A stretch of 64,000 nt of DNA. Origin: Kocuria rosea. GTDB taxonomy: Bacteria; Actinomycetota; Actinomycetes; Actinomycetales; Micrococcaceae. Position numbers and translations under genes: made by a program. The DNA lies in NCBI RefSeq assembly GCF_023715525.1, contig NZ_JAMBOG010000021.1:1-64000 (forward strand). Direction: 5' to 3'. The notes below the pieces were generated by a model. That model was not told where the DNA came from. It did no database searches and was given only the letters and a program-made list of their open reading frames with translations. Below are positions 14,147-52,091 of this stretch, one piece after another (the stretch's first letter is position 1; each line of letters starts with the position of its first letter).

Positions 14147-14312
14147 ACAAGATCTCCCCTGCGAGCAGGCCAGTTTTGCCGATGGGGGCGACACAACGAT
14201 GGCCAGTGATGGTGTGAGGCCAGTCTACGGTTGCGGCGAGTGGCTCCCCGTTCGCCTATTTCAGCCGATGACAACCTGAACCTCGCGAACATTTGAATTA
14301 GCTCAGATGAGT

Positions 14313-29436: not shown

Positions 29437-30339
29437 TTCGTCGACAACCGAAAAGTCTGGTGATGCAGTAACCACCTCTGCAGCGGACATGTCATCGTGC
29501 CGGTATTGCTCCCCTTCTATAAACGTGCCTTTCCGTGGCACACATCAGAGCACTTGTCCGCCCGTCGAGAATCACTCGAACGTGCATCCCTTGTGCCTGT
29601 GAGCAGCATAAGTAGACGATGGGAAAGGGTGTACGGGGATTACGCCTACGCACCGAGCTGGTCGAGGACGCCGCCGAGCTGAACATCAGGCTCTCTGTCA
29701 GACATATCAGTGCCACTAACGATTAAGACGAATTAAATACGCCCTAAATTGATGAAAGTCTGGTAAGGCGAGTCATCACAAATGGATTTTTTGGCGCCAC
29801 CTGCAACTACTGCAGCAGATCCCTGTCGGGGCCCAGCCTTTTCCAGCCCATTAAATTCTCTGTGATTATCAAAAGGTAATCCATCACGACTCGGCAATAC
29901 AACCGTGGCCGCATGGTATGCCCGTCAGACGCCCGGTGGCCGTGAAAATTAACCCTTAACGCAGCGTCAGATATGACAACTAAATCATCAGGGCCGCATT
30001 CTCCTCCCTAAGCCAGGCCAGTGCAGGGACTTAGGATTGGGAAGCCCCAAACATTGAAAAGAACTACGTCAGTACCGAGCACGCGCGGGCCCTCTGCTCT
30101 TGAAAACCGTGTGTCACGCTTTATCTTACGGTACCAAATTTGTAACTAAATTTGAATTCTCAAGGTTTCCACCACCGTTTATGGTATCCCATGGTCATGA
30201 CTCATGGGATGCGGACCATTTACCCAACATTCCGGTAAGCAATTGACACATCGCCGGGCACTCCTATGGGCGATTTCCTATTAACATAGGCTAAAAGCAA
30301 ATAATCCGCCCCAAAATAATAAAAGACCGGTGAGCAAAT
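29437..30339. other. A/T-rich spacer, no gene
   Basis: About 900 bp with base composition clearly unlike the rest of the window. No coding frame is convincing. TTGACA at 30242-30247 about 100 bp before the next start is a reasonable -35 box, but no matching -10 at normal spacing stands out. Confidence 0.45.
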
Positions 30340-32958
30340 ATGCGAAAAAGTGCGCTATGTTCATCCATATTTCTGCTCTTAGCCCTTATGGGCTCGATGA
30401 TTCTCAGCGGTTATGCGGGTGACAACCTGCCCGGGTACGTATTGCCTGAGGATGATGTCAACACATCGGACGAGAGGATAATAGATTCGTTAACGCAACC
30501 CAATCTTGAAGGTAAAAGGACCTTGCGAATCTCCGTAACGGACCATATCGAAATAATACACGAATTCACAGTGACAACCAATCATCCAATAGTCAGTGAT
30601 TTATCGGCAGGAAAAATTGATGACCATCCGTCGTCTATTTTAAGCATGCTCTCCGGATACCTTGAAGTGGAGTCTGCATCTGAAGATTATATTGAAATTT
30701 TTTGGAATAATCCGACTTTGCTGCGAAGCGACAATGGGGACACGACTATAGTCATCAGCGGAGTAAGCGAAGCCAGTCTGGATCTTCCACTCACTATACA
30801 ATATCGCCACCACCCTTATTGTGCGTCGGAAAAATGCACGATTACTGCAATTGTAACAACCGCCAACAATAAGCTCGTCACCTCGGCCGAGCCCTCAGAT
30901 ACCATAACGAGTCAGTCCCCGATGACTACAATTATGCGTGACCTTACGGATGATTTTACGTTGGTCGTAGGGGATAAGCGCGCGTCTGGCCGTGCGGAAC
31001 GATGGGAATTTCCTAAACCAATCGTCTCTCATTTTCCACAAATTTGGCGAACGGTACTCCTTGTGGGTCCGTGGTTCGTGGCGTACTACGTGTTCCACCG
31101 GAGCGTGTCGAGGGGAGCCCTGACTAGGCACGATGGTAGCGCGAATTTTGACGATTTAATCCGACCCTCTGTCAATATGTTGCTGACGGCATCCGCAGTA
31201 CTTGTCGTTGGACAAATGTTTAGCCTTTTAGAAGTGACGGTGTTCGAGTGGCGTGAACGCCAGTATGATTTATATGATTTAGGACAACGGCCGTGGTTTG
31301 TGCCCCCCGGGATGTTGAGAGTAACACCGGTTATCATTGGCGTATTGGCTCTATGGGCGTGGAATGAGGGACCTCGCTTGGGTGCTATCCAAAAGCGGTT
31401 CCTCAATCCATTCAAATTAATTTCTATAATGGTAGGATTGCCGCTGGTTGTCTTCTTGGTTCTCGATTTGTGGCCATACTGGTCCCAGCTTAGAATTTTA
31501 GGCGTCTTGTTATTGGCTATACTATTTGGTTTGATTGGGTTGGCCAAGCAGTTGGGCATGTCTTTCCCCCGGGCTATGTTCAATGGTTCATGTGCAGCTT
31601 TTCTAGTTATAACCATCTCTCTAGTGGGGACAAGGCACACGCAAAATGCTGAGATTATAAATGGAGTGCTGACTGCGCTGACAATGGTCGGTTTCATGAC
31701 TTCTCTTATTCTTGGTGTTTACTTAATATGTAAAATTCCAGGACCTAATAAAGATGTTATACCAAATTGGGTTATTGCTCTGAGTGTCACCTTCTCTATT
31801 GTTTTTTCCGTTCCTGCAGAAATATATGATTTTCAACTTTTTCCCATTTCACCATCTGATGTAATCGCAATGATTTATGGGTTGGAGCCATTTATTAGAT
31901 TTGGACTCACGGCTTTGGTTTTTGTTGTACTTTACGCTTGGCCTCATTTTGATCTGCCGGACAGGTGTATCCGCGGCGCAGGTGTCGCAGTAGTTGCCCT
32001 TTTTACTGTGAGTTCTGATACGTCTTGGATGGGGATTCCTGTTGCGTTCATTGCGGGATTTTTATTAATTACAGTTATTCTTATTCCGCGGACTGCAGGC
32101 GCGGCTTTACTGCATCCAGATATGGTGTCGCGCGGATTGGATCTCTCCGGTTCGGACAAAGGGTCGAGCAAGTCCGCCGCAAAAGCCCGTAACTTTTTGT
32201 CTCACTTAAAGTCGGCACGACTTCAACGAGAAGCAAATTATGGCTTGAGGAAGAAGGTGGTGACGGGGGATATCGCACTTGAAAAGGAGTCCGAGGCGCG
32301 TTCAGAAATCGCGAAACTGCTTCACGCTCCTATAAAAATATCGTCTTCGGATAGACATGAAGTGCTGGGATGGGGAGGCGTTGGTGATCCATGGGCGCGT
32401 GGGTTGCGGGGCGCGGCAACTTCTTCTACAGTCGGCCTTATTTTTTTCATACCCCAACTCGCAGATATTTTTTCTATATTAGGGGACATTAGGGGTACCT
32501 CCCCTTGGGTGGGGGCATTAAACATAGCGTTGGGATTTGGTTATCCTCTCTATGGATTTGCATTTGGTTATTTTATGCCGATCATTCGTGGAAGCATGGG
32601 TATTGCAAAGGCTGCGCATTTTTTCGTGGTGTTGGCCGTATCCCATATTGTGGCATTGGTATGTCAACCAAGTTTGCCCGAAGACATTTCTCAAACTGTA
32701 TTTTTGCTGTGTTTTCAGTTCGCTGTTTTGTGTGTGGCCTTGGGTGTAGGGGCTGACTTAGGTTCTCTTCGACACGCTGGTGCTGGCGTGGACCAGTTGG
32801 CGGAGCTTTATCATGTGAACCGCCTTACTCTCTGGTCGTCGGGCGTGGCCGTCGCGGCGGTGTCCGCGCTTATTACAGGTCTCGTGGGTTCAGCGCTTCC
32901 TGTATTGATGCAGCCAGTGCTTCCGCCGTCGCCACCCGCTATATCCAGCGAGCCTTAG
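30340..32958 (+). CDS. Large A/T-rich polytopic membrane protein of unknown function
   Basis: 872 aa. A signal-like first helix (SSIFLLLALMGSMILSG) precedes an extracytoplasmic beta-rich domain of about 190 residues with paired Cys (YCASEKC). About a dozen membrane helices follow from residue 230 to 600, then a charged cytoplasmic stretch (about 600-700, KARNFLSHLKSARLQREAN) and four more helices to residue 860. No transporter or enzyme motif is seen; it resembles large actinobacterial membrane proteins of unknown function. Codon use is strikingly A/T-rich, a strong sign of recent transfer. The stop TAG coincides with the TA target of an IS630 copy; the empty-site reconstruction suggests that the native stop was also TAG, so the protein is intact. 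Confidence 0.82.
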   Translation: MRKSALCSSIFLLLALMGSMILSGYAGDNLPGYVLPEDDVNTSDERIIDSLTQPNLEGKRTLRISVTDHIEIIHEFTVTTNHPIVSDLSAGKIDDHPSSILSMLSGYLEVESASEDYIEIFWNNPTLLRSDNGDTTIVISGVSEASLDLPLTIQYRHHPYCASEKCTITAIVTTANNKLVTSAEPSDTITSQSPMTTIMRDLTDDFTLVVGDKRASGRAERWEFPKPIVSHFPQIWRTVLLVGPWFVAYYVFHRSVSRGALTRHDGSANFDDLIRPSVNMLLTASAVLVVGQMFSLLEVTVFEWRERQYDLYDLGQRPWFVPPGMLRVTPVIIGVLALWAWNEGPRLGAIQKRFLNPFKLISIMVGLPLVVFLVLDLWPYWSQLRILGVLLLAILFGLIGLAKQLGMSFPRAMFNGSCAAFLVITISLVGTRHTQNAEIINGVLTALTMVGFMTSLILGVYLICKIPGPNKDVIPNWVIALSVTFSIVFSVPAEIYDFQLFPISPSDVIAMIYGLEPFIRFGLTALVFVVLYAWPHFDLPDRCIRGAGVAVVALFTVSSDTSWMGIPVAFIAGFLLITVILIPRTAGAALLHPDMVSRGLDLSGSDKGSSKSAAKARNFLSHLKSARLQREANYGLRKKVVTGDIALEKESEARSEIAKLLHAPIKISSSDRHEVLGWGGVGDPWARGLRGAATSSTVGLIFFIPQLADIFSILGDIRGTSPWVGALNIALGFGYPLYGFAFGYFMPIIRGSMGIAKAAHFFVVLAVSHIVALVCQPSLPEDISQTVFLLCFQFAVLCVALGVGADLGSLRHAGAGVDQLAELYHVNRLTLWSSGVAVAAVSALITGLVGSALPVLMQPVLPPSPPAISSEP

Positions 32959-35406: not shown

Positions 35407-36720
35407 GTGGAGCTCTCGTTCCGGGCTGATCCTGGTGTGATGAGCAACGATGTGGCGGTGGCGGACGTTGCGCAGTGGGCTGAGGGTCTGGCTGAGGTCG
35501 CGGAGCTGATCGGGGGCCGGTTCGCGAGGGCGGAACCTGGGGCCAACGCAATGGCCTACCTGCAGGGGCTGCTCTCCGGGGCTGAGCGGAAGAACTCCTG
35601 GACCCTCTCCGAGCAGGCCGGCCACGCCACACCCGATGCGATGCAGCGGCTGCTGTCGACCACGGACTGGGACCCGGACGCACTGCGCGATGACCTGCGG
35701 GCCTACGTGGTGAGCACGATCGGGGATCCGGGCGGGGTGCTGGTGGTGGACGAGACCGGGTTCCTCAAGAAGGGCACCCGCTCGGCCGGAGTCGCCCGGC
35801 AGTACTGAAGGCACCGCGGGGCGGACGGAGAACTGCCAGGTCACCGGTGTTCCTCACCTACGCCACCGGGCACGGGCGCACCTTCCTGGACCGGGAGCTG
35901 TACCTGCCCAAGGCCTGGACCGATGACCCCCACCGGTGCCGAGCCGCCGGCATCCCGGCCGGCCGTCGCTTCGCCACGAAGCCGGAGCTGGCCGCGGCCA
36001 TGATCGCCCGCGCCGTTGCCGGCCACGTACCGGCCAAATGGGTGACCGCCGATACCGTCTACGGCCAGGCCTGGACCTTCCGCCGGGCCGTAGAAGACCA
36101 GGGTTTGCACTACGTGGTCGGTGTGCCGGCCAGCCAGGCCGTGTGGCCGAAGACCGGGCCCCTGGCCTTCCACCAGGTGCGCGCCGAGCAGCTCATCGCG
36201 TCCTTACCGGGGCAGGCCTGGCGGGTGCGCGCAGCCGGGGACGAGGCCAAGGGGCAGCGCCGCTACGGATGGGCCCGGGTGCGGGTCACCGGAATGCTCG
36301 AGCCCGAGGGCGAGTACTGGTTGCTGGCCCGCCGATCCCTGACGGATCCGACCGAGATCGCCTATTACCTGTGCTTCGCGCCCCCACGGGTGGGCCTGGC
36401 CGAACTGGCCCGGATCGCCGGGACCCGGTGGTCGATCGAGGAGACGTTCCAGACCGCCAAGGGTCAGACCGGCCTGGACCAGTACCAGGTGCGTCAGTAC
36501 ACCGGGTGGTACCGCCACATCACCTTGGCGATGCTCGCCCACGCCTTCCTCACCGCGACCCGCGCCCGGGCGGCGGCAAAAAGGGGGGCCACCCCGAAGG
36601 TGGCAGCGAGCTCATCGCGCTGAGCCTGCCCGAGATCCGGCACCTGCTCGTGCTGCTGATCTGGGCCACGCCACCAACACCCCAAATCGTGCTGGAGCGA
36701 TCCCGCTGGCCCCTGCGCCT
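35407..36720 (+). pseudogene. IS701-type transposase, broken by several frameshifts
   Basis: First part 35407-35808: ADVAQWAEGLAEVAELIGGR, LSEQAGHATPDAMQRLLS and VVDETGFLKKGTRSAGVARQ with the first catalytic Asp, then a stop created by one extra base (expected SGTAGRTENCQ follows in another frame). Second part 35847-36623: LTYATGHGRTFLDRELYLPK, WVTADTVYGQ and GTRWSIEETFQTAKGQTGLD with catalytic D and E. A third shift in the G-run near 36578 moves the C-terminus (HLLVLLIWATPPTPQIVLER) to yet another frame. Inactive relic; clear ends were not found. It begins about 20 bp after IS copy B. Confidence 0.8.
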
Positions 36721-37183
36721 CATCGGGGTCGGGGACCGGAGCACCCAAGTTGTCGGGGACCGGGAGATGTGCCAGGTAGCCCGCTACCGGCGCATCGGAG
36801 AACTCCCGCAACCGGCGATTTGAGCACGCTGCGGCACGGGATGTGTTCGTCCTCCGGGGGGAGTGGCGCTGTCCTGGTCATCCCGGATGAGCAGGGCATG
36901 AGGCGGCAACGGCCATTCTCTCGCGCGAAGTTCCGTGCCCAGGTGCCCGCGTGTCTTCTGGCATGCGGTGATGTTCGGGAAACGTGACATCTACCAGCAC
37001 ATGCTGGCGTCAGGTCCATGCACTCGGGTTCACTGGGTGCCAGTGATCGAGATCCGCGCCGCCCCCAGTGACCGATGAGGGTGTCGCTTCGCCGGGCCTG
37101 CCGGGAGTGCCAGGCCCTCGACAGGACCAGCGGCACGAGAGCACTGGTGACTTCCCGGCAGTGCCCCGAGGGGGACAACGGCC
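36721..37183. other. Spacer between the IS701 relic and the Trypco1-CHAT pair
   Basis: About 460 bp with no convincing gene. It presumably holds the promoter for 37184; no obvious -35/-10. Confidence 0.4.
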
Positions 37184-37513
37184 ATGGACAGTCTCGTCGA
37201 GTTTTCCACAGGTACCGGGGACAGCGTGCTGGTGCAGGTCAGTAGTGGTCCGGGTGTGCCGGTCACCCGCGGGGCAGGATCTGCTGCGCTGGTGCAACAG
37301 GCCCAGCGCACGTTCGAGGAGGCAGTCGGGCGTATCCGGCCGGCGGTCCAGGGGCTGATCGAGCAACTGGTGGCGTTGCCCCATCGACCGTCGGAGGTGT
37401 CGGTGGAGTTCGGGATCAATCTCCACGCCGAGGCCGGGGCGTTCATCGCCCAGGCCGGCACGAGCGCTAACTTCACCGTCAAGCTCACCTGGGAGGGTCC
37501 CGACCGGGACTGA
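37184..37513 (+). CDS. Trypco1 (trypsin-co-occurring domain 1, CU044_2847-type) protein
   Basis: 109 aa single domain. The pattern MDSLVEFSTGTGDSVLVQVS, a middle helix QQAQRTFEEAVGRIRPAVQG and the end PSEVSVEFGINLHAEAGAFI, ANFTVKLTWEGP is that of the Trypco1 family, small proteins found next to trypsin-like or CHAT proteases in actinobacterial conflict systems. They are thought to be sensors or targets of the protease partner; this is from published comparative genomics of the family, not from this sequence. 58 bp upstream of the CHAT gene, same strand, clearly one operon. Confidence 0.85.
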   Translation: MDSLVEFSTGTGDSVLVQVSSGPGVPVTRGAGSAALVQQAQRTFEEAVGRIRPAVQGLIEQLVALPHRPSEVSVEFGINLHAEAGAFIAQAGTSANFTVKLTWEGPDRD

Positions 37514-37571
37514 GGGCCGGGACGGGCGCGGGGAACGTGGTGTAGGGCGGGCTCGAGGTTCGGGGGAATCG

Positions 37572-39827
37572 ATGAGCGTGTTGAAAGTGTCCATCGACCG
37601 GGCCGGGGCCGCCGGTCGGTACGACGTGGAGATCGTGCAGTCCCCGGTGGGGGAGGCTGCGGCCACCGTGAGCCTCGACAGCGATCGGTTGCTCCAGGAG
37701 CGGGAGGGCTGGCAACAGGCGGTCCTGTTGTCCTCCATCGGCACCCGGCGGATCGTGTCCCAGCTGGAGACGGTGGTCCGGGAGGTCGGCCAGGAGCTGT
37801 TCGAGGCGGTGTTCGGGGACCCGGCCATGGCCGCCCGTTATCGCTCCAGTGTGGACTACGCCGCCGATCACGGGGAGTCGCTGCAGGTGGTCCTGCGGAT
37901 CTCCGCCCCCGAGCTGGCCGGATTGCCGTGGGAGGCGATGTACGACCCTCACGCCGGCACCTACATTTGCCGGGTGGAGCCTTTGGTGCGTCATGTCCCG
38001 GTGGCCTCGGCGCTACGTCCGTTGCGGGTGCAGTACCCGGTGCGGATCCTGGGCATCACCGCCTCCCCCCGCGGGCTCCCCGCCCTGGATGTGGAGGCCG
38101 AGGAGGAACACCTCACCCAAGCGCTGGAGGAGCAGGTGCGGCAGGGCCGGGTGGAGGTGCACTGGGTGCGTAACGCCACCTGGGACCGCATTCACGACAC
38201 GTTGCTGAGCGAGCCGTGGCACGTGCTGCACTTCATCGGTCACGGTGACTTCGACGCCGAGGGTGATGAGGGGGTCCTGGCGCTGGAGAACGCCTCCGGG
38301 CGGGCTCATCATGTGGAGGCGAGCCGGTTCGCGGACCTGTTGCACGAGGCCAGCCCCATGCCGCGGTTGATGGTGCTCAACTCCTGCAAGTCCGGGCAAG
38401 CCGGTACCACGGATCTGTTCTCCGGCACCGCCTCGGCCTTGGTGCGTGGTGGGGTGAGCGCGGTGGTGGCCATGCAGTTCGAGATCACTGATCCGGCCGC
38501 GGCCGCCTTCGCCCGCGGGTTCTACTCCGCGATCGCCGTGGGTCGTCCGGTGGACCAGGCGGTGCGCAGTGGGCGGGTGTCCATCCTGGGGCTCAACGGT
38601 CACACCTTGGAATGGGCCACCCCCGTGCTCTATGTGAGAGGGCAGGACACCCGCCTGTTCACCATCCGGAAGACCCGCGGACCCGCCCCGGGCCAGGAAA
38701 CAGCCCACCACACTTCCCCACCCCTCAAAGAGCAGGATGAACCACCCACCGGCGCTGACGAGCAGACGGACCGAGCGGACAACACGGCCTCGGCGGAGGC
38801 CGAACGCGAGCAAGCCCAACGAGCCGAGGCCGAACGCGAGCAAGCCCGCCGAGCCGAAGCCGAACGGGCCGAAGCCGAACGGGCCGAGGCCGAACGGGCC
38901 GAGGCCGAACGGGAACAGGCTCAACGGGCGGAGGCCGAACGCGAGCAGGCCCGACGAGCGGAAGCTGTCCGGTGGGCAGAGGCCGAGCGGGCAGCGTTCA
39001 AGCAGGCGGAAGCCGAACGGGAACAGGCGGAACGCCGACAGGCTGAACGGGAGCAGGCCCAGCGTGCGCAAGCCGAACGCGAGCAAACCCGACGAGCCGA
39101 AGTCGAACGACAACAGGTTCAACGGGCGGAAGCCGAACAGGCCGAAGCCGACAGGAAAAAAGCCCGGTTCCGTGCAAATCAGCATCCAGCTCGGAAGACG
39201 CCTTTTGTCGCGATTCCCCACAGCAAAGTTGGAAGTAGCTCTGGTAATCCCGAGAAGGAACATCCGCCGGATCACGTGCCACAACAGCGTATCGGTCCGG
39301 TCTCCGCCCCGCCGGAGCACCGCAGACTGCTGAAGCTGACTTTGATTTCGGCCGGGCTATTCCTGCTCTACAACATCGGCTTCCTAATCAGTAACGCCAC
39401 TCATTACCCGGCCGGCTGGGAAGCGTGGGAGGCAGCGGGAGAGGGGGTGTTCACGCCGGAACACCAGCGTGCCGTAGCTAACGAAGTGCGCATTATAGCA
39501 ACCATCCACCTCGTTCTGCTGGCATTCGCCATGCTCCTATACGGGGCCACGTACCTTCGTTTGAAGGAAGGAGACAGACAGGCTCGGATCAACGGCATCA
39601 TCCTGGCCATCGTGGGCACCATAGTCACGGTAATAACCTCACTGGCTATCTTCAGTGAGGTGTTCCTATATCTCAAAGAATACGGAACCCTAGTTGTCGA
39701 GGTATGGGCCCAAGTGGTGATCGCCATCGGTGTCGCCTGCGGTATCGCTCTCCTTGTCGTCAACATCCTGTGGCTGATCACGGCGTTCAAAAATCCGGTG
39801 GCTCGCTGGTTCGCCCAACAGTCTTAG
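37572..39827 (+). CDS. CHAT-domain protease with coiled coil and C-terminal membrane domain
   Basis: 751 aa. N-terminal region 1-110, then the CHAT (caspase-like) domain about 115-365: LAGLPWEAMYDP, VLHFIGHGDF with catalytic His224, and LMVLNSCKSGQAG with catalytic Cys272, followed by GGVSAVVAMQFEITDPAAAA. Residues about 406-530 are an Ala/Glu/Arg coiled coil built of repeats of AEREQARRAE. A C-terminal domain (about 584-745) has four membrane helices. Such an enzyme would be a membrane-tethered protease activated by oligomerisation, partnered by the Trypco1 protein. The stop TAG straddles the TA target of IS copy C; removal of the IS gives TAA at the same place, so the protein is complete. 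Confidence 0.88.
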   Translation: MSVLKVSIDRAGAAGRYDVEIVQSPVGEAAATVSLDSDRLLQEREGWQQAVLLSSIGTRRIVSQLETVVREVGQELFEAVFGDPAMAARYRSSVDYAADHGESLQVVLRISAPELAGLPWEAMYDPHAGTYICRVEPLVRHVPVASALRPLRVQYPVRILGITASPRGLPALDVEAEEEHLTQALEEQVRQGRVEVHWVRNATWDRIHDTLLSEPWHVLHFIGHGDFDAEGDEGVLALENASGRAHHVEASRFADLLHEASPMPRLMVLNSCKSGQAGTTDLFSGTASALVRGGVSAVVAMQFEITDPAAAAFARGFYSAIAVGRPVDQAVRSGRVSILGLNGHTLEWATPVLYVRGQDTRLFTIRKTRGPAPGQETAHHTSPPLKEQDEPPTGADEQTDRADNTASAEAEREQAQRAEAEREQARRAEAERAEAERAEAERAEAEREQAQRAEAEREQARRAEAVRWAEAERAAFKQAEAEREQAERRQAEREQAQRAQAEREQTRRAEVERQQVQRAEAEQAEADRKKARFRANQHPARKTPFVAIPHSKVGSSSGNPEKEHPPDHVPQQRIGPVSAPPEHRRLLKLTLISAGLFLLYNIGFLISNATHYPAGWEAWEAAGEGVFTPEHQRAVANEVRIIATIHLVLLAFAMLLYGATYLRLKEGDRQARINGIILAIVGTIVTVITSLAIFSEVFLYLKEYGTLVVEVWAQVVIAIGVACGIALLVVNILWLITAFKNPVARWFAQQS

Positions 39828-41036
39828 TGCTTCGTTCCGCTTTGGGGGCGTAGATTGGTGGGAGCTGATCCGGTTCCCTGGGGGCGATCCATATGCCGAA
39901 GATCTTGCGCGCGAGGCCGGCCGCGGACGCGGCCGAGGAGAAGGCCATCCGGAAGCTGGCCGGGGCCCGTCACGCCCCAGCCGATTGGATCCTCCGGGCG
40001 AGGATCGTGTCCTTGAGTTGGGAAGGGCTGTGCGTACCGGTGATCGCCGAGCAGCTGGGCTGTCACGAGCAGACGGTGCGCCGGTGGCTGGAGCGCTCCA
40101 ACGCCGCCGGGGTGGACGGGCTGGCCGACTGGGGTGGGCAGGGCCGCAAGCGGCGGCTCACGGAAGAGGAACGCTCCCGCCTGATCGCTCTGGTCGCCCA
40201 GCCCCCGCCGGGTCGGCCGGTGCGCGATGAGGCGGGGGAGCTGACCGCTACCGAGGAGACCGGCCCACCGGAGTGGACCCTGGACGCTCTTACTACCGCC
40301 GCTCAGGCCGAAGGCATCCAGGTGCATCGCAGTCAGGTGAGGCGGATCCTGCTGGCCGAGGGCGTGCGCTGGCGCCGTACCCGCACCTGGACGACCAGCA
40401 AGGACCCGGACGTCGCGGGAAAAGGACGCGGAGTCTTCCCTCTACACCTACCCACCTGAGGGAGCGACGGTCCTGTGCATCGACGAGCTCGGGCCGGTAA
40501 TCCCGCGCACGTTTCCGCCGGCACCGGGGTGGTCACCGGGCGGGCACCGGATCAAGAACGAGGTGGACTACGGCCGGGGCCCGGAGAAGACCTGGGTCTA
40601 CGGGGCGCTGCGACCGGCCGACGGCCAGGAGCTCACCATGACGGCAGCCTCCCGCAACAGCGCCAACTACCAACGGTTCCTGCACGCGGTGGAGCAGGCG
40701 AACCCGGGCGGGAAGATCGTGGTGGTCACCGACAACCTCTCCTCCCACCACAGCGCGGCCACGCGTACCTGGCTGGAGGACCACCCGCGCATTACCCACG
40801 TCTTCATCCCGGTGGGGGCCGCCTGGCTCAACCTGCAGGAGGGCTGGTGGCGGATCTACCGCAAGGCGGCCCTGGCGGGGCAGTCCTTCGCCGACCCGGC
40901 CGAGATCGAGGCCGCCACCGCCCTGGCCACCGCCCAGCTCAATGCCCGGGCGAAACCGTGGGTCTGGGGACGGCCCCAGCCACCACATCGCCGGCTGCGC
41001 CGCCGCTTTGTATATCGCCTTTGAGGAACGAAGCAC
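39827..41036 (+). mobile_element. IS630-type element, copy C (about 1210 bp)
   Basis: Ends GTGCTTCGTTCCGCTTTGGG (39827) and, inward from 41036, GTGCTTCGTTCCTCAAAGGC; flanked by TA at 39825-39826 and 41037-41038. Same type as copy A, inserted at the stop codon of the CHAT gene. Confidence 0.87.
39893..41024 (+). pseudogene. IS630-type transposase of copy C, two frames
   Basis: First frame 39893-40459 (LGCHEQTVRRWLERSNAAGV) stops after GKGRGVFPLHLPT; DDE frame from about 40445 to 41024 (VLCIDELGPVIP, VVTDNLSSHH, NLQEGWWRIYRK). The single-base difference seen in copy A relative to copy B is present here too, so a -1 slip at the A-run does not reach the catalytic frame. Residues 1-98 differ from copy A at several positions while the rest is nearly identical, suggesting gene conversion between copies. 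Confidence 0.7.
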
Positions 41037-41306
41037 TAAGTGTGCGGCGATCGACGGTGAATGTGTCACGCGTGCTCCGCCTGATCCGCGCGTAGCATTT
41101 TTAAGCTACTAATTTCAGTGCGTTGACCGATCATACGTTGGGAAAGGCCCGATCATGATCCGTTGGTGAATTTATATATAGACCGAAACGGGTGGCGAGG
41201 CGGTGCGTTCTCCCAGATGAAGCTGGCTCTGGAACATCTTACGCTCGTCATCGTAACGTCGTATAGTGTATGCACGAAGCGCGATAAATCTACTGCTGGA
41301 GTGTTT

Positions 41307-41911: not shown

Positions 41912-44905
41912 TCACAGCAACCCAGTATCCTGACCAACGTCCGCAGCTGCCTGCTGCTGGAGCTCTTGATAGTGGCGTTGCTCGTCCGCGCGGCCCAGTA
42001 AGCCGAAGGATGCTGCGAGGTCGCCTAGCGCTTCGGCGTAGAAAGCGCTGTGCTCGCCGGCATGATCGCGCCAATATGCAGCAAGGTCTTGCTGGCCTGG
42101 AATAGCTTCCTGCGCGGCGCCACTTCGGGCCAACATAATGAGTTGCTGACGGCGTGCCCGAAGCGTCAACCGGTGTTGTGAGCCGAGTGCATGGCTCATC
42201 CGCGGGACCAGGTCGTCGAAGAGGGCTGTGGCCTTCCCCGGTGCTCCCGCTGTCCCTATGAGCGCCGCGCGATTGTGCTCGGCCAGAAGCGCCGCGCTGT
42301 CATCTGCCGGCAGCCGAGCCGCGGCCGTCTTGCAAGCCAACTCAAGCAGGTCGAGCGCGCGATCGTGCCGCCCCGCGCGACGCAGCATCTCTCCTGCTGT
42401 CGCAAGTGCGTTGACCATGGGCTGGGCGTCTACTGAGTCCAGAATTGAGCCAAGAGCAACTAGTTGACTGCCGATTTCGTCGTCTGGTGAATCAGGCAAG
42501 CCTGCCAGTACGTTTAGCAAGCGCATTCTAGCCTTCCAGGTGACCTCATGGTCCGTGCCGTACAGGGCGTTGTATCGTTCCACGAGTTCACGTGCCAACG
42601 GTAGTGCCTCTGCCGGGTTTCCGGTTCTAGTTAGTCGATCGATAAAATTGCCGAGGCTCGCTAGCGTCGTAGTGTGGTTTTTCCCAAGCACGCGGGTGCG
42701 GCGGGCAATAAGGTCAGTGTATGCCGCGATTGCGTCTGGGTACGGGCTGGGAGTAACACCCTGGGAGAGCAAGCTGTGTAACGAGAAAAGGGTGTGCGGA
42801 TGATCGGGACCCAGCACCCGAAGCCGACGCTCATAAGCGTCAAGATGAAGTCGTCGTGAACGTTCCGGATCAACGGCGAATACGGCGTTCGCTAAGTTAT
42901 GTTCGAGGGTCAGCGTGTCGCGATCATCCGGCCCCAAAAGACACGTCATAGCATCGAATATTTCCTCAAGATCATTTATCTGGGAACCGGGATTAACTTT
43001 TCCGCGATCAAGCGCCAAATCTGCTGCCACGGTGAGCGATTCCCGCGTTTGCTCCTCGAGGCTCACCAAGCGGACCTTTTCAACCGCCAAGGCATGGATT
43101 TGCGCGGCTTCGGAGTAACGTTGCTCGACATGCAAGAAGCGACCCAGAGCGCGCAATGCGTTAATGTTAAAGGTATCCTCTGGTGATGGTGCCTGGAGCG
43201 CAAGGGCTGCGCCGAAAGCGGCAAGTCGGCGATTATTGCGATGCGTAGCGATGTCTTCGACGTCCCCGATGTCGTCAAGTATCTGGACAGACACGTCCTC
43301 AACGACAGTGGCGTGGAAGTCCTCAGGATCCTGGACGTACTGTAGTGCTGAGAAACCGACTAAACCATGCAGCTCGATAGTGTCTGAATCCAAAGTGCGG
43401 ACCAAGGAGAGATTGAGCAACTCGCCCAGCGCTTGACGAGCCCCGGAAGTTGCTAGGTCCCCGCTCGTGAAGTGCCGCAATACCGGCATCAAAGTTCGCA
43501 CGGGCAACGGTCCTACATTAACCGTTGCTGCGATCGCGAGCAGGATGAAAGCTGCCTCCGTAAGGCGATGTATGCTCGGCCCAAACGTGGCCACCGCGCT
43601 ACTCACATGGCCAGTCGGAGAGACAGAAGTCCAGGCATTGGTTGCCGCCTCCTCAACCAGGGTCAATTCGTCTCCCGGCTTATCGAGTTCGGCCAGCAGA
43701 GAGCCTGCGGAAGAGCCGGGCATGGCAACGAGTGCGCCGACGACGTCGAGTGCCAGGGGTAGGTGACCTAGTTTGGCAACCAATCCGAGAGCGTCATTCT
43801 TGTCCACTTCTTCCGAATGAGTCATCTGGGACAGGAGTAGCCCAACAGCCTCTTCATCGTTCATGACCCTGAGCGGCAGATTGGGCACGTGCCGATAGGC
43901 GGTTCCTTGGGTTGTTACAACAGTGCGGCCACCTTTGACCGGGGGCAGCACGGAAGCGAACTCGGCGGCGGATAGCCCTGGTGGGAGGTCGTCGACCACC
44001 CATAGGAAGGGCCGGTCGAGTGAGACGAGATGACCGGTGATGACATCGTTTTGATTCGGAGACGGGGCGGTCAGGTCGGTGTCACCCGGACGGATCTGGA
44101 GAGGGCGCAACTGACGCGCAATAAGTCCGAGCTGGGTCTCGAGGACAGATTGGACGTGCTGTGGTCTCTGCCCAGCCTCGACGGGGGCGCTGAGCCGCAG
44201 CCAGAAGATCCCGCCGGGGTAAGCGGCGGCGAAGCGACTGGCGTATTCGCGTACCAGTGCAGTCTTGCCTAATCCACCCATGCCCTGAACGACGACAGCA
44301 GGAGGCACGGGGTCGCCACCGGCCACCGCAGGCGGTGGCCGTAGTAGCTCGTCCAGTCTCCACAGGTCCGACGCACGGCCCACGAACCGCTGGAACCTTG
44401 ACGGCGGGTCACCGTACCAAGGCACCGCATCCGCATCGACAATCTGTGCAAACGTGCCATGTGTCGCGTGAGCACGATCAGCGATGCGACGGGCCAGCGC
44501 AGCCCAACCCTCGGTGTCCTCCGACTGCGGCGCGTCCGCGATCAGATTAGCGCGCAGTGACGTGGGCAAGATATGTTCGATGCCCGGCTCGGGATTGATA
44601 ACGAAGACGCGTGAGGGATCGACGGCTATCGCAGCCGTGAGCTCCCAGTGGCACGCTCTCCGGCTGGCGTAGGCGTCGGAGTACCAACACAAGAACAAGG
44701 CCGACTCAGCCATTCCCGCCCTGACACGATCTTCGATCGCGTCGAAATCCTCAATGTCGGCATCGTCAAAGAAAACCTTGACACCAAGTTTTAGGAGGCT
44801 GTCGCGCAACATCGGCGCCAGTCCACGACGCGGGTTCTCCGCCATGCGTTGGGAACTTTGATCGAGCCAGGCGTGACTGAGGAACACGGCACCAGATCCA
44901 GCCAT
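41912..44905 (-). CDS. TIR-NB-ARC-TPR STAND protein (antiphage-type NLR)
   Basis: 997 aa. TIR domain about 5-140 (AVFLSHAWLDQ, VKVFFDDADIED, and CHWELTAA with candidate NADase Glu88). NB-ARC about 170-480: Walker A GMGGLGKT (208-215), Walker B FLWVVDD (300-306), RTVVTTQGTAYRH sensor and LGHLPLALDVVGA (GLPL-like). C-terminal about 550-985 is a superhelical TPR array (ERRLRVLGPDHPHTLFSLHS-type repeats, typical of actinobacterial NB-ARC-TPR). In studied bacterial relatives the repeats sense a phage product, the NB-ARC oligomerises and TIR depletes NAD+. ATG at 44905 follows GAGAGGGG. GC is lower than in the neighbours. Confidence 0.92.
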   Translation of the reverse strand: MAGSGAVFLSHAWLDQSSQRMAENPRRGLAPMLRDSLLKLGVKVFFDDADIEDFDAIEDRVRAGMAESALFLCWYSDAYASRRACHWELTAAIAVDPSRVFVINPEPGIEHILPTSLRANLIADAPQSEDTEGWAALARRIADRAHATHGTFAQIVDADAVPWYGDPPSRFQRFVGRASDLWRLDELLRPPPAVAGGDPVPPAVVVQGMGGLGKTALVREYASRFAAAYPGGIFWLRLSAPVEAGQRPQHVQSVLETQLGLIARQLRPLQIRPGDTDLTAPSPNQNDVITGHLVSLDRPFLWVVDDLPPGLSAAEFASVLPPVKGGRTVVTTQGTAYRHVPNLPLRVMNDEEAVGLLLSQMTHSEEVDKNDALGLVAKLGHLPLALDVVGALVAMPGSSAGSLLAELDKPGDELTLVEEAATNAWTSVSPTGHVSSAVATFGPSIHRLTEAAFILLAIAATVNVGPLPVRTLMPVLRHFTSGDLATSGARQALGELLNLSLVRTLDSDTIELHGLVGFSALQYVQDPEDFHATVVEDVSVQILDDIGDVEDIATHRNNRRLAAFGAALALQAPSPEDTFNINALRALGRFLHVEQRYSEAAQIHALAVEKVRLVSLEEQTRESLTVAADLALDRGKVNPGSQINDLEEIFDAMTCLLGPDDRDTLTLEHNLANAVFAVDPERSRRLHLDAYERRLRVLGPDHPHTLFSLHSLLSQGVTPSPYPDAIAAYTDLIARRTRVLGKNHTTTLASLGNFIDRLTRTGNPAEALPLARELVERYNALYGTDHEVTWKARMRLLNVLAGLPDSPDDEIGSQLVALGSILDSVDAQPMVNALATAGEMLRRAGRHDRALDLLELACKTAAARLPADDSAALLAEHNRAALIGTAGAPGKATALFDDLVPRMSHALGSQHRLTLRARRQQLIMLARSGAAQEAIPGQQDLAAYWRDHAGEHSAFYAEALGDLAASFGLLGRADEQRHYQELQQQAAADVGQDTGLL

Positions 44906-45593: not shown

Positions 45594-45889
45594 AGGGGCC
45601 CGTGTCATGGATCTTGGTGCTGTATGTCCCGCGATGGGTTGGGTAGGACCTTTCTGTGTAAGGACCTTGCGTGAGGCTGGGGAGAGATCCTCGCACATGG
45701 TGCGGTAGGTAAGGTTTCTCAGCAAGCATTCGCAGGCTCTACGGGCCCCTTCGAGGAGCGGTGGGCCGGTGAGGGCGCCGAGGCGGCGAAATTTTTACTG
45801 CCGTTCAGCAACCCTTTGGGAAATCAGACATTCCTGATGCCCGGCGAGCATGATGTCAGTGAGTGCCACTGCGGGAAGGCAGGTCGCCC
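45594..45889. other. Promoter spacer of the NACHT gene
   Basis: About 300 bp without a gene; no clear regulatory motif was seen. Confidence 0.35.
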
Positions 45890-48800
45890 ATGTCCAGATC
45901 GAGCGCTTTGGCGGGGTCCTTGGCCACGGTGGCGATCGCGGCACTGGGTGGCCCGCTAGCCATGGGCGGCGCTGCTTTGGAGGAAGTGGTCAAGTACGCC
46001 CAAGCGCGGTACGAGGAGGGCGACCAGTCACGGCAGGTGCGCAAAAAGGTTACAGAAGCCATCACGCGGTGGGCGCGCACCGAAGGCTTCACCGATGAGG
46101 AGGTCGAGCGCGGGTTGACGCTGGCGACCGAGACGGTTGCACGGTTCGGGCTCTCCAACAAAGTTCTTGCCGAACTGCGGTTCGACCCGGCACGAGCGGC
46201 TAACCAGGTCGTGGCCTCAGCGAGGGAAAAGGACCGGCATTGGGGGACGGAGAACCACTATGAGGTCGCCGCCCGCAGCATTCAGGAGACCTACGAGGCG
46301 TTGATCAACCAGCTGCAGGCCGACCACGACGTGTTGATTGCAGTGTCCCAGGCGTTCCACGATCGCTTCGATGCCCACGCAGCGGCAGCCAAGAACCTAG
46401 CCGAGACCACCCACGGTCAGCTCGGCGATCTACTCGAGGCCCTAGTAGCAGTGAGCCCCGTATCGGAGGTGACGTCCTACCTGCGAACGAGGATCGCCGA
46501 TTGGAACGTGTCCGTCTGGTACCACGACCGGCAGGCAGCAGCGTTGGAGAGACCGCTGAGGGTGCGCAATCAGGCGAATCCAGCAACAGGCGGAGACTAT
46601 CTGACAGCTGAAGAGGCGCTGGCACACCAGCAGATGTTAGTGGTGCTGGGCGGACCCGGTGCGGGCAAGACCTGGCTGGCCCGCCGCTATGCCCGCCAGG
46701 CCGCGCAGACAGCCCTGTCTCAGCTGGAGAACGGGGCCGGCCTGGAGGAGGTGGAGCTGCCGCTGCTGACCACCTGGGCGCAGTGGGTCAAGGCGCCAAG
46801 TGGCTCGCCGCGGGAGTCACTGGTGGCGGCATCGTTCGCTTCTGGTCTAGGGCACAGCGATCCCGGCGGTGGCGACATTGTCGGTCGACTTCGTCGCGTG
46901 TTTTTGCAACCTCGGGCCAGGGTGCTATTGGTGGTGGACTCCTTGGACGAAGCCGCCGACCAAACCGCCCAAGCTTCCCGGCTGAATGAGCTCCGGGGAC
47001 TGCTGACAGGCTGGCGAATCGTGGTGACCAGCCGCCCGGCTGCCTGGGACGCCACCTACCGCGGCGGCTCAGGCCGAGCTTCCATGGGCTCAGGCCAACT
47101 TCCCACGCCGCGGGTGGTGACGCTGTGCGACCTCACCTACCCGGAGGACGTGGAAGCCTTCATCCGCGACTGGTTCGCCCACGCCGCAGACCCCGCCCGC
47201 GGGGAGGCGCTGATCCGGGAGATCCGCGACCGTGCTGACTTGGCCCGGGTCGCGGTCGTGCCGTTGATGCTGACGTTCTACTGCCTGTTGGCTGAGAAAT
47301 CAGAATCCGGGGCCGAACCGCTGCCGGCTCGGCGCCGAAAGCTCTACCGCCGTCTGGCACGGCAGCTGCTCCGGGCTGAGTGGACCGCCGATCACCCCGG
47401 ACCCGACGCGGCCCCCGACTGGGATTACTGCGAAGAACTCCTCAGGAACTGGGCATGGCAGGCCGTCCGCGATCGCACCAATGCCGTCGGCCTGGGCGTG
47501 TGGGAAGACAGCTTCACTCCGCCCACCAGGGTGCGCAAGGCAGAGGCCCGTGCCATCGACCATATCGCGCCGAAGACAGCCGTAGACGACGAAGAAAACG
47601 ACACCCGCCGTTTCGTGCACCGGACATTCCTGGAACACTTCGTCGCCGAGCACATCGCCACCCTGCCCGCCGGAGAAGCAGCCGACCTGCTGCTCCCGCA
47701 CCTGTGGTTCGATCCCGACTGGAAGGTCGCAGCCCCCTCGGCGATCATCGCCCACAACCAGCAGCAACCAGGAACCCTCCTCCAGCACCTGCTGGATCGG
47801 GCTGTCCACCCCGCACCGGACCCGGCCAGACAATGGGCGCGCGACCAGCTCGACCAGCTCCTTCTGACCATCGCCCAGGAGTCCGATCCCGGCGAATGGA
47901 GCCCGGAGCACCAAGACGTGCTTCACCAGTGCCGTACACGCAACGCGGCCAAGTACCCTGACCTCGTCATAAGATCCGCGCACTGGACGCGCTCCAACCC
48001 AGACGCCCGCACCGTGGTGCTGCAGGCCCTGCACACCGCCAATTGGGGCCACTTTCCCAAATTCGGTTGGATGTACTTCGAATTCCTGGTGGCGGCGCTG
48101 ATGAGGCTGGGGCCTACCGAGGCCCAGCGGGCCCAAGCCCGCACTGAGGTGCTGCAGGACCTGTCCTTCGCCAGCCTCCTGATGCACCCCCGTCCCCGGG
48201 GCCTGGTGGAGGCGCTGGTGGCGCTTGGGCCGACCAAGGCCGAGCGGGCCCAGGCCCGCACTGAGGTGCTGCAGGTCCTGCGCTTCGTCGGCCTGCAGGG
48301 CCCCAGGGACCTGGTGGGGGCGCTGATGAGGCTGGTGCCCACCGAGGCCGAGCGGGCCGAAGCCCGCACCGCGGCGCTGGAAGCCCTGCCCACCACCATT
48401 AACTCCCGGGGCCTGATGGAGGTACTGGTTGGGTTGGGGTCCACCGAGGCGGAGCGGGACCAGGCCCGCACCGTGATGCTGGAAGCCCTGGCCACCGCCA
48501 GCCCGTGGGATCTCCGACCCCTGGTGGAGGTGCTGGTGGGGTTGGGTCTCACCGCGGCCGAGCGCACCCAAGCCCGTACCGTGGTGCTGGGGACCCTGTC
48601 TGCCGGCAACCCGGGGTGCGCCAAAGACATGGTGGAGGCACTGGTGGGGTTGGTGCCCACCGAGGCGGAGCAGACCCAGGCCCGCACCGAGGTGCTGCAG
48701 GCTCTACCCACCGCCCTTCTGCGGGACCCCCGGGGCCTGGTGGAGGCACTGGTGGAGCTGGGGGCCACCGAGGACGAACGGGGTCGGGCCCGCGCCGTGG

Positions 48801-49576
48801 TGCTGCAGGCCCTACCTAACACTAACTCGGGGGACGTCACCGACCTGGTGGAGGCGCTGATGGGACTGGGGCCCACCGAGGCCGAGCGGGGCCGGGCCCG
48901 TACCGCGGTGCTGCAAGCCCTGCTTGCCCCCGACCCACAGAACGACCTATACCTGGTGGAGGCGCTGGTGAGGCTGGGGCCCACCGAGGCCGAGCGGGCC
49001 CAGGCCCGCACCGCGGTGCTGCAGACCCTGCCCACCGCCGACCCGGGGGGCTCCAGCAGGCTCGTGGTAACGCTGGTGGAGCTGGTGCCCACCGAGGCTG
49101 AGCGGACCCAGGCCCGCACCGCGGTGCTGCAAGCCCTGCTTGCCCCCGACCCACAGAACGTCCCATACCTGGTGGAGGCGCTGGTGGGACTGGGGCCCAC
49201 CGAGGCCCAGCGGGCCCAGGCCCGCACCGTGGTGCTGCAGGCCCTGCTTGCCGACGGCCCGTGGCACGTCTCATACCTGGTGAAGACGCTGATGGTGCTG
49301 GGGCCCACCGAGGCCGAGCGGGCCCAGGCCCGCACCGTGGTGCTGCAGGCCCTGCTTGCCGACGGCCCGGGGAGCGTCGCCGACTTGGTGGAGACGCTGG
49401 TGGGGTTGGTGCCCACCGAGCCTGAGCGGGATCAGGCCCGCAGCGCGGTCTTGCGGGCCCTGCCCCACGGCGACCCGAGGGGCCCCCGAGGCCTGGTAGA
49501 GGCGCTGAGAGTTGTTTCATCCGTTGAGTCCTGGCTGGCTTGGCTGAGTGGCGGCCCAGCCGACCAGGGACGGTGA
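45890..49576 (+). CDS. NACHT-domain STAND NTPase with thirteen 36-residue C-terminal repeats
   Basis: 1228 aa from ATG 45890 (GGGAAGGCAGG upstream). N-terminal helical region about 1-200 with a hydrophobic Ala/Gly segment near 8-30 that might touch membrane. NACHT about 245-560: Walker A GGPGAGKT (254-261), Walker B LLVVDSLDEA (346-355, with the extra acidic residues typical of NACHT), RIVVTSRP (about 381-388). A linker domain with FVHRTFLEHFVAEHIATLPA follows. From about residue 735 to 1207 there are thirteen repeats of LVEALVGLGPTEAERAQART...VLQAL plus a partial one, probably a two-helix solenoid sensor. bNACHT proteins are known antiphage ATPases; no effector domain is recognised here. Confidence 0.88.
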   Translation: MSRSSALAGSLATVAIAALGGPLAMGGAALEEVVKYAQARYEEGDQSRQVRKKVTEAITRWARTEGFTDEEVERGLTLATETVARFGLSNKVLAELRFDPARAANQVVASAREKDRHWGTENHYEVAARSIQETYEALINQLQADHDVLIAVSQAFHDRFDAHAAAAKNLAETTHGQLGDLLEALVAVSPVSEVTSYLRTRIADWNVSVWYHDRQAAALERPLRVRNQANPATGGDYLTAEEALAHQQMLVVLGGPGAGKTWLARRYARQAAQTALSQLENGAGLEEVELPLLTTWAQWVKAPSGSPRESLVAASFASGLGHSDPGGGDIVGRLRRVFLQPRARVLLVVDSLDEAADQTAQASRLNELRGLLTGWRIVVTSRPAAWDATYRGGSGRASMGSGQLPTPRVVTLCDLTYPEDVEAFIRDWFAHAADPARGEALIREIRDRADLARVAVVPLMLTFYCLLAEKSESGAEPLPARRRKLYRRLARQLLRAEWTADHPGPDAAPDWDYCEELLRNWAWQAVRDRTNAVGLGVWEDSFTPPTRVRKAEARAIDHIAPKTAVDDEENDTRRFVHRTFLEHFVAEHIATLPAGEAADLLLPHLWFDPDWKVAAPSAIIAHNQQQPGTLLQHLLDRAVHPAPDPARQWARDQLDQLLLTIAQESDPGEWSPEHQDVLHQCRTRNAAKYPDLVIRSAHWTRSNPDARTVVLQALHTANWGHFPKFGWMYFEFLVAALMRLGPTEAQRAQARTEVLQDLSFASLLMHPRPRGLVEALVALGPTKAERAQARTEVLQVLRFVGLQGPRDLVGALMRLVPTEAERAEARTAALEALPTTINSRGLMEVLVGLGSTEAERDQARTVMLEALATASPWDLRPLVEVLVGLGLTAAERTQARTVVLGTLSAGNPGCAKDMVEALVGLVPTEAEQTQARTEVLQALPTALLRDPRGLVEALVELGATEDERGRARAVVLQALPNTNSGDVTDLVEALMGLGPTEAERGRARTAVLQALLAPDPQNDLYLVEALVRLGPTEAERAQARTAVLQTLPTADPGGSSRLVVTLVELVPTEAERTQARTAVLQALLAPDPQNVPYLVEALVGLGPTEAQRAQARTVVLQALLADGPWHVSYLVKTLMVLGPTEAERAQARTVVLQALLADGPGSVADLVETLVGLVPTEPERDQARSAVLRALPHGDPRGPRGLVEALRVVSSVESWLAWLSGGPADQGR
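48090..49513 (+). repeat. Coding tandem repeat, about 108-bp unit, 13 copies plus a partial
   Basis: DNA counterpart of the NACHT protein's C-terminal array. Unit GGGCCCACCGAGGCCGAGCG...CGCACC...GTGCTGCAG...CCTG recurs each 100-110 bp. Copies 8-12 (about 48840-49380) are the most alike, indicating recent expansion or gene conversion. Confidence 0.8.
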
Positions 49577-51703: not shown

Positions 51704-51778
51704 AACGCGGGCGCGGTGTGGACCGGCTCCGGGATAAGCCTTGCGGTCCCTCCGCCGGCCCCACACCGCACCCGCGTT
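51704..51778. other. Candidate origin of transfer (oriT): 18-bp inverted repeat
   Basis: AACGCGGGCGCGGTGTGG at 51704-51721 and its complement (one mismatch) at 51761-51778, 39 bp apart, in the non-coding space between the accessory gene and the MobF relaxase. An arm contains GGTGTGG, a sequence also present at the F-plasmid nick region. Location and structure fit an oriT; no experimental or comparative proof. Confidence 0.45.
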
Positions 51779-52050
51779 ACCTCGTCCCCGGCTGTCCACC
51801 CGACACCGCGCGCGTGGACAAGCCGGTGCGGTGGTACCCAGTCGACCTGCCGTGGGGACAGCTGATGCCCCGCTTCTCCGTGCTCGTTCCTCGCACTGCT
51901 CATCGGCATCACCTGCCCCCACTTCCCAGGTCTCGTGGGCACCACCGCCTCCCCTGCGGGGACGGACAGCCCGGCTCTGGACCCCGCTCCTTCGCCGGCG
52001 CTCAGTCGACGGTGCCTTACGAGCCTCATGGACTGTCACACCTCTTGCAT

Positions 52051-52078
52051 CATTGATCAATGAGGATGAACATGTTCA
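52051..52078. promoter_or_regulatory. Relaxase operator region: CATTGATCAATG and TGAACATGTTCA copy 2
   Basis: Two perfect 12-bp palindromes, CATTGATCAATG (52051-52062) and TGAACATGTTCA (52067-52078), immediately upstream of the relaxase ATG at 52092. The second is identical to the copy before the divergent gene, suggesting one regulator for both. Confidence 0.55.
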
Positions 52079-52091
52079 AATTGCGTGCGTG

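Follow-up and report, generated by a model that had tools for sequence, protein, structure and literature searches.

Parts of PMC7159879 describe, as 'System 4', the EACC1-caspase pair, in which a small constant 5' gene is followed by a gene for a protein with an N-terminal caspase-superfamily protease and a highly variable C-terminus. Trypco1 has been mentioned near caspase-like peptidases in a portion of PMC10907252 that deals with putative antigen sensors linked to diversity-generating retroelements (DGRs). Apart from that mention, the literature searched, as far as its accessible parts go, describes no two-gene module of Trypco1 and a CHAT protease. Here, we report on such a gene pair in Kocuria rosea, on the first 64,000 nucleotides of contig NZ_JAMBOG010000021.1 (forward strand; hereafter the window, meaning the whole stretch that was analysed). 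The reading that we favour, tentatively, is that of a two-gene Trypco1-CHAT module, with a constant protease and a variable C-terminus, which would act as a membrane-tethered receptor-protease.

Both open reading frames (ORFs) of a preliminary description of this DNA are present at the positions given there, and their third-position content of guanine plus cytosine (GC) is coding-like. The first (37184–37513, plus strand) encodes a 109-residue Trypco1 protein, which matches PF19493 (E-value 4.1e-26; 91.9 bits, with a cut-off of 24.6) and NF041216. The second (37572–39827, plus strand) encodes a 751-residue CHAT protease-like protein, which matches PF12770 (E-value 5.7e-32) and was modelled with AlphaFold2. 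At an E-value of 0.001, they are the single Trypco1 and the single CHAT of the 3.6 Mb genome. Trypco1 has a predicted beta-beta-helix-beta-beta fold, in a model of middling quality (predicted local distance difference test, pLDDT, 71.7; predicted template modelling score, pTM, 0.51) that gave no fold match at E 0.001 in the PDB or among viral models, and it has no predicted membrane helix (top 19-residue hydropathy of 0.87). Its best profile match was to a designed helical bundle and covers the helix alone. No sigma-70-type promoter was found in 36600–39900, a result that says little in this phylum.

CHAT was the only Pfam family detected in the 751-residue protein at E 0.001, and the match spans residues 71–353 and profile positions 2–286 of 289. 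Together with a short beta region, this domain forms a constant N-terminal module (residues 1–366; 37572–38669, plus strand), whose identity to the four nearest relatives is 49.6–54.2%. The predicted catalytic residues, His224 (codon 38241–38243, plus strand) and Cys272 (codon 38385–38387, plus strand), are kept in 38 out of 38 aligned rows (the window and 37 relatives); one row of this alignment, the resident protein L110, is aligned to the wrong part. The same pair is invariant in a 53-row alignment, where the numbering is offset by 14, in agreement with the complete dyad proposed earlier. Most of CHAT was modelled with pLDDT above 90, with a low-confidence loop (274–277) just after the catalytic cysteine. 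Foldseek searches with the CHAT model ranked SAVED-CHAT first (8tl0, E 5.3e-12), which, among solved structures, gave the best sequence match too (E 9.7e-22), followed by separases and Csx29; MALT1 and caspases ranked lower, and DdvA was another match. By sequence and model, the protein is a CHAT peptidase family member with a predicted caspase/separase-type fold and an intact predicted dyad.

Relatives were gathered by similarity to this CHAT domain. Matches, own genome included, occurred in 3 out of 149 genomes of the family, in 11 out of 396 of a phylum sample and in 12 out of 297 of an order sample. Further sources were genome contigs (44 loci), plasmids (14 records, of which the best one was examined) and phage records (1). 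A set of 58 domains was retained after removing seven near-identical rows (>90%) and six rows shorter than 300 residues and adding L102 and L103; Trypco1-bearing rows outside this set are L057 (short) and L070 and L071 (near-copies). Trypco1 adjoins CHAT on the same strand in 14 of the 58 loci, window included, a proportion that, given how the relatives were gathered, is not an unbiased frequency. It lies upstream of CHAT in 12 of them and downstream in two (G123 and an Arthrobacter plasmid), so that this survey of homologous operons, with both gene orders, bears out the operon of the preliminary description as a real pair. Mapped on the tree, the Trypco1 label required six changes, compared with a mean of 12.7 for shuffled labels (0 out of 500 shuffles were as low), and it falls in scattered clades; its bearers include Geodermatophilus, Blastococcus, Nonomuraea and Demequina. 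In locus L064 (3192–12306, a Litorilinea contig), three CHAT genes of the same family stand in a row.

Trypco1 itself is not confined to such pairs. Six more distant Trypco1 genes in the family have no CHAT match within 1.5 kb on either side, and their neighbours are, by eye, thioredoxin-like or metabolic-enzyme-like genes. Trypco1, seen earlier as a marker of conflict systems, is therefore not a clean one. Two genomes of the family (loci L010 and L012) have a Trypco1 gene beside a thioredoxin-like gene (by eye), with no visible conflict locus. Locus L057 (4122–8384, minus strand) carries Trypco1 beside one protein with trypsin-like, CHAT, nucleoside triphosphatase-type and TPR domains. Its domain content makes it a putative bridge between the Trypco1-CHAT module and the trypsin systems from which the name Trypco1 comes. 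This distribution also bears on whether Trypco1 and CHAT might form an antidote-poison pair that stabilises a mobile element. Two adjacent genes on a mobile-element contig, with a small protein beside a predicted enzyme, would suit this idea. However, 44 out of 58 CHAT loci show no Trypco1, which implies that CHAT does not always need it, and Trypco1 also occurs without CHAT nearby. We consider an antidote-poison pair highly improbable.

The C-terminal parts of the relatives were surveyed in 53 complete proteins, five of the 58 having been set aside as cut by contig ends, using a simple hydropathy rule. In 31 of the 53, a single predicted membrane helix precedes a stretch of 90 residues or more, which would lie on the outer side of the membrane. 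The remainder have four or more helices (6/53), two or three (1/53) or none (15/53). Among the best 25 of 85 families, the C-terminal domains included CBM9 (13/53), FGE-sulfatase (4/53) and CARDB (3/53), as well as several kinds of beta-propeller and TPR; judged by family membership, they are mostly of binding type. Multi-helix C-termini were commoner beside Trypco1 (5 out of 13, compared with 1 out of 40; Fisher P=0.0023), although four of the five Trypco1-linked proteins form two pairs of sisters in the tree, so that they are not independent. In two close pairs of proteins, CHAT identity is 77% and 83%, whereas the membrane parts show no significant similarity in one and 36% identity in the other. 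Since close pairs keep CHAT while their membrane parts diverge, the C-terminus looks like the input side of the protein, exchanged or fast-changing.

In the window, the C-terminus is a four-helix membrane domain (residues 572–751; 39285–39824, plus strand), visible both in the AlphaFold2 model (pLDDT blocks of about 40–78) and in the hydropathy scan, as the preliminary description had it. These last 180 residues align with a resident 202-residue protein of the same genome (G000:C16:30139-30744) at 44% identity (79 out of 180 columns; 112 bits), while the next best resident match scored 59 bits. With the resident protein as query (E 1e-4), matches were retrieved in 94 out of 149 family genomes and in all eight sampled Kocuria genomes. 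In a tree of 30 sequences, which contained 29 resident loci, one per genome and with L134 left out, the CHAT-borne domain groups with its own genome's copy (support 99/95). The C-terminal domain is, on sequence grounds, homologous to a resident, widespread family of small membrane proteins. The resident protein is itself weakly DUF4064-like (E 0.01, below the cut-off). Its proline-rich N-tail is missing from the CHAT-borne domain, and it ends at the same codon as the CHAT ORF, so the latter is not visibly truncated.

The synonymous distance between the CHAT-borne domain and its own genome's copy is 1.01. This resident copy is at a similar distance (0.94) from its counterpart in another Kocuria species, whereas the CHAT-borne domain is further (1.61) from that second species. 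The domain was, therefore, probably copied within or near this lineage. Third-position GC is 0.70 in the CHAT-borne domain and 0.98 in the resident copy, which would be odd if the donor were this very genome; the donor may have been a close relative of it. Identity to the resident copy is highest in the junction plus first helix (21/36) and in the fourth helix plus tail (24/34), and lower in the loop after helix 1 (8/29) and in helix 2 (6/22); most of the insertions lie ahead of helix 2 or in the stretch from helix 3 to helix 4 (all boundaries set by eye).

What this domain does was weighed in three ways. The preliminary description suggested that it could be a death effector: self-cleavage by CHAT would free the four-helix part, which would then permeabilise the membrane and kill the cell. 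A protease and a membrane part do share one chain, with a low-confidence linker between them (residues 537–571; 39180–39284, plus strand; pLDDT of about 40 over most of it), and auto-proteolytic release of effectors has been proposed for EACC1-caspase proteins, in parts of PMC7159879. Pfam, however, gives no pore domain in the four-helix part, the only hit being SepZ at 15.4 bits, below its cut-off of 27.3. Self-release is made less likely by the widespread resident homologue of the membrane part and by the further domain that follows the membrane helix in most of the relatives that have one; in the 31 of 53 relatives with one helix and a further domain, the release of a pore would make little sense. 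We regard self-release as improbable, and the idea of a dedicated death effector is not supported, given the resident homology and the binding-type C-termini of many relatives. With a relative among the host's small membrane proteins, the membrane end looks, from its homology, more like a sensor, an anchor or a bait than a pore.

A second possibility is that the C-terminus is no more than a membrane anchor for the protease, while Trypco1 or the short N-terminal region senses the trigger. At least one membrane helix is predicted in 38 out of 53 proteins, and the best-kept parts of the copied domain are helix 1 and helix 4 with the tail, which speaks for an anchor. However, one helix would suffice for anchoring, the two presumed outer loops carry insertions relative to the resident copy and relatives have binding-type domains at this end, which makes a simple anchor unlikely. 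The third possibility starts from the copying itself. In plants, some immune receptors include copies of proteins that pathogens target, and the resident inner-membrane protein may have been copied as a bait, an integrated decoy, so that an invader binding or attacking the real protein would spring the CHAT protease. We give this idea a low probability. Among the literature searched, by title, no bacterial receptor was treated as an integrated decoy.

Between CHAT and the membrane domain lies a single long helix rich in Ala, Glu, Arg and Gln (residues 404–536; 38781–39179, plus strand), encoded by 15-base repeats and modelled mostly with pLDDT above 90. The preliminary description had taken it for an oligomerising coiled coil. 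The long helix is present, but the heptad period is lacking: its hydrophobic pattern has a period of 5, with hardly any power at 3.5. At i+3/i+4, Glu-to-Arg pairs number 25, compared with 17.6 (standard deviation 3.1) in shuffled sequences, whereas like-charge pairs number 21, compared with 34.9 (standard deviation 4.6). Given these periodicities and charge pairs, oligomerisation through this helix finds no support in the sequence, and the segment reads as a single charged helix, or rod, rather than as a heptad coiled coil. If straight, it would be about 20 nm long (133 residues at 0.15 nm each).

Under the receptor-protease reading, the membrane domain would have been copied from the resident gene or from a very close relative of it, and its four helices would span the inner membrane and leave both termini in the cytoplasm, as suggested by basic residues that flank the inner loops (by eye). 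The C-terminus would serve as the input, either as a sensor or bait that reports membrane damage or binding or as an anchor that concentrates the protein there. The rod would act as a spacer, the cytoplasmic CHAT domain as the output, and Trypco1 as a small cytoplasmic adaptor or regulator that holds the protease or sets it free. Once triggered, probably by infection or by another element, the CHAT domains would cluster and become active. Activation by clustering is proposed by analogy with SAVED-CHAT, for which a PDB entry is titled as an activated filament. The active CHAT domain would then cleave host proteins other than its own membrane part, leading to growth arrest or cell death.

Several observations weigh against this reading. 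Trypco1 was not detected beside CHAT in the 44 loci mentioned above, which include two of the four nearest relatives (L038 and L040), although several of the Trypco1-less loci stop less than 300 bases past the end of CHAT, where a downstream Trypco1 would be invisible. Neither protein matched a PADLOC model at E 0.1. In the membrane-domain tree, the CHAT-borne domain has a long branch (1.8, compared with 0.058) and a deviating composition, both flagged by the program. When it was used as query against 296 genomes of the class, the matches were limited to its own genome and to a weak one (E 8.5e-4) in an apparent transport permease; such a near-absence of matches is expected if the domain has drifted. 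Accelerated or positive selection on the copied domain is not supported, the ratio of non-synonymous to synonymous distance being about 0.46 (0.46/1.01), much as in a comparison of two resident copies (0.51/0.94). Searches of 149, 38 and 39 genomes gave no resident source for three other multi-helix C-termini, which limits the case for borrowing from the host to this domain. Furthermore, the variable C-termini of EACC1-caspase proteins are read as effectors, not sensors, in parts of PMC7159879. Finally, 12 of the 44 Trypco1-less loci carry, near CHAT, a second CHAT-type protein of one family (672–845 residues, stop to stop), which indicates that the partner of CHAT is replaceable.

These 12 loci are L044, L047, L052, L075, L078, L081, L082, L084, L085, L087, L099 and L100. 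Of the seven second proteins scanned, five have a Pfam CHAT match at E 0.001 and two have TCAD7 ('Ternary complex associated domain 7'). TCAD domains are Pfam names drawn from ternary conflict systems; the term TCAD does not occur in the main text of PMC7159879. In a profile search, the second protein was present as a separate gene in none of the 14 Trypco1 loci. Its other profile matches were weak (at most 42.5 bits) and fell inside CHAT ORFs already counted, except for an antisense frame in L052. From these gene contents, Trypco1 and the second CHAT-type protein look like two options for the partner of the same constant CHAT module. A third family occurs in 8 of the 12 loci, with DUF7379 in all three members scanned, and the loci with the second CHAT-type protein and DUF7379 are possibly a separate three-gene CHAT system. 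The first recurrent neighbour cluster of the Trypco1-less loci was rejected as a partner gene, as it looks antisense. In L048 and L051, a caspase-like gene (by eye) stands beside CHAT.

The case for a role in defence draws on the surroundings of the pair. The contig is 68 kb long and carries genes for ParA (9564–10337) and for a TrwC relaxase (51741–56627). Close to the pair lie a NACHT protein of 1,237 residues (45863–49576, plus strand) and a 997-residue TIR protein (41912–44905, minus strand), which matches AAA/NB-ARC weakly and TPR clearly, is NLR-like and falls below the FxSxx-TPR cut-off (191.9 bits, with a cut-off of 300). A CAP12-type TIR protein (14596–15693, minus strand), in a 2 kb stretch of lower GC (0.56), matches PADLOC candidate PDC-S35, and the adjacent gene for a DEDDh exonuclease-type protein (12581–14194) matches PDC-S48 and the CRISPR-associated DEDDh model of PADLOC. 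Because the contig carries the ParA, TrwC relaxase, NACHT, TIR-TPR and CAP12-TIR genes, an accessory, defence-type role of the pair is likely; defence is thus deduced from its rarity, mobility and company of genes. An accessory character agrees with the scarcity of CHAT matches in the family and with a contig that resembles a plasmid or an integrative and conjugative element.

A housekeeping or developmental signalling role instead of defence, as in HetF, a cyanobacterial protein with a developmental role, or in the anti-sigma factor DdvA, would draw on a match to the HetF model (E 1.7e-15, but 56.4 bits with a cut-off of 1,200). It would also draw on DdvA, which matches in fold and, weakly, in sequence (E 7.5e-4), and on the distant Trypco1 genes beside thioredoxin or metabolic genes. 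Rarity in the family and the company of relaxase, ParA, NACHT and TIR genes on the contig argue against it, and the DdvA match is at residues 861–989 of 991, whereas CHAT is N-terminal here. Pfam scans, which covered 25 proteins selected from the window's ORFs, revealed no sigma factor; one transposase helix-turn-helix matched Sigma70_r4_2 below the cut-off. We, therefore, judge such a role to be unlikely.

The pair is flanked by insertion elements on both sides. One of them (39825–41038, plus strand) was delimited by its terminal repeats and flanks, has a transposase-type helix-turn-helix in its first ORF and is presumably of the IS630 type. There are two inverted copies (1,160 nt, 94% alike), and the first three bases of each, TAG, provide the stop codon of the adjoining gene: 39825–39827 for the CHAT gene and 32956–32958 for a gene encoding an 872-residue protein (30340–32958, plus strand). 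The latter has many hydrophobic stretches (by eye) and no match in Pfam (E 1), PADLOC or NCBIfam (E 0.1). GC is strikingly low, 0.46, at 30001–32000, in the region of this gene.

If the receptor-protease reading is true, there would be a family of receptor-proteases with changeable inputs and partners, in Actinomycetota and beyond, and Trypco1 would be an adaptor common to trypsin-like and caspase-like immune proteases. The borrowed domain offers a direct route to the function of the C-terminus, by comparison with the resident protein. Should the decoy idea be true, the resident protein would be a so far unrecognised target of phages or rival elements.

Among known systems, SAVED-CHAT (8tl0) and TPR-CHAT/Csx29 (Craspase) have the same CHAT fold, but the present protein has no SAVED or TPR domain and carries a rod and a membrane domain instead; no Cas effector was found among the 25 scanned proteins. 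DdvA (PDB 8rot), a transmembrane anti-sigma factor, is likewise a membrane protein with a CHAT domain, differing in where the domain is placed. The Trypco1-trypsin genes of the VMAP ternary systems, as presented in parts of PMC7159879, likewise set Trypco1 beside a peptidase; here, the peptidase is CHAT, and no trypsin, vWA, MoxR or VMAP domain was found among the scanned proteins. The DGR-linked sensors, in the accessible portion of PMC10907252, also bring recognition domains together with CHAT and Trypco in a single type of locus and share with the present relatives the FGE-sulfatase domain counted above. Unlike them, the window has no reverse transcriptase among its scanned proteins.

In the EACC1-caspase pair, as far as those parts of PMC7159879 describe it, a small 5' gene likewise precedes an N-terminal protease with a variable C-terminus, often with membrane helices. 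The parts themselves differ. Trypco1 was rejected as a distant EACC1, since there is no profile similarity (hhalign probability of 0.1%), and PF19953 has no match in this genome. EACC1 is described there with a membrane helix, which is not predicted in the present Trypco1, and the protease here is a CHAT protein that scores 19.4 bits with the EACC1-type caspase model NF047832, which has a cut-off of 140. By the published layout available to us, the EACC1-caspase pair is, nonetheless, the closest one described, with the same logic built from different parts.

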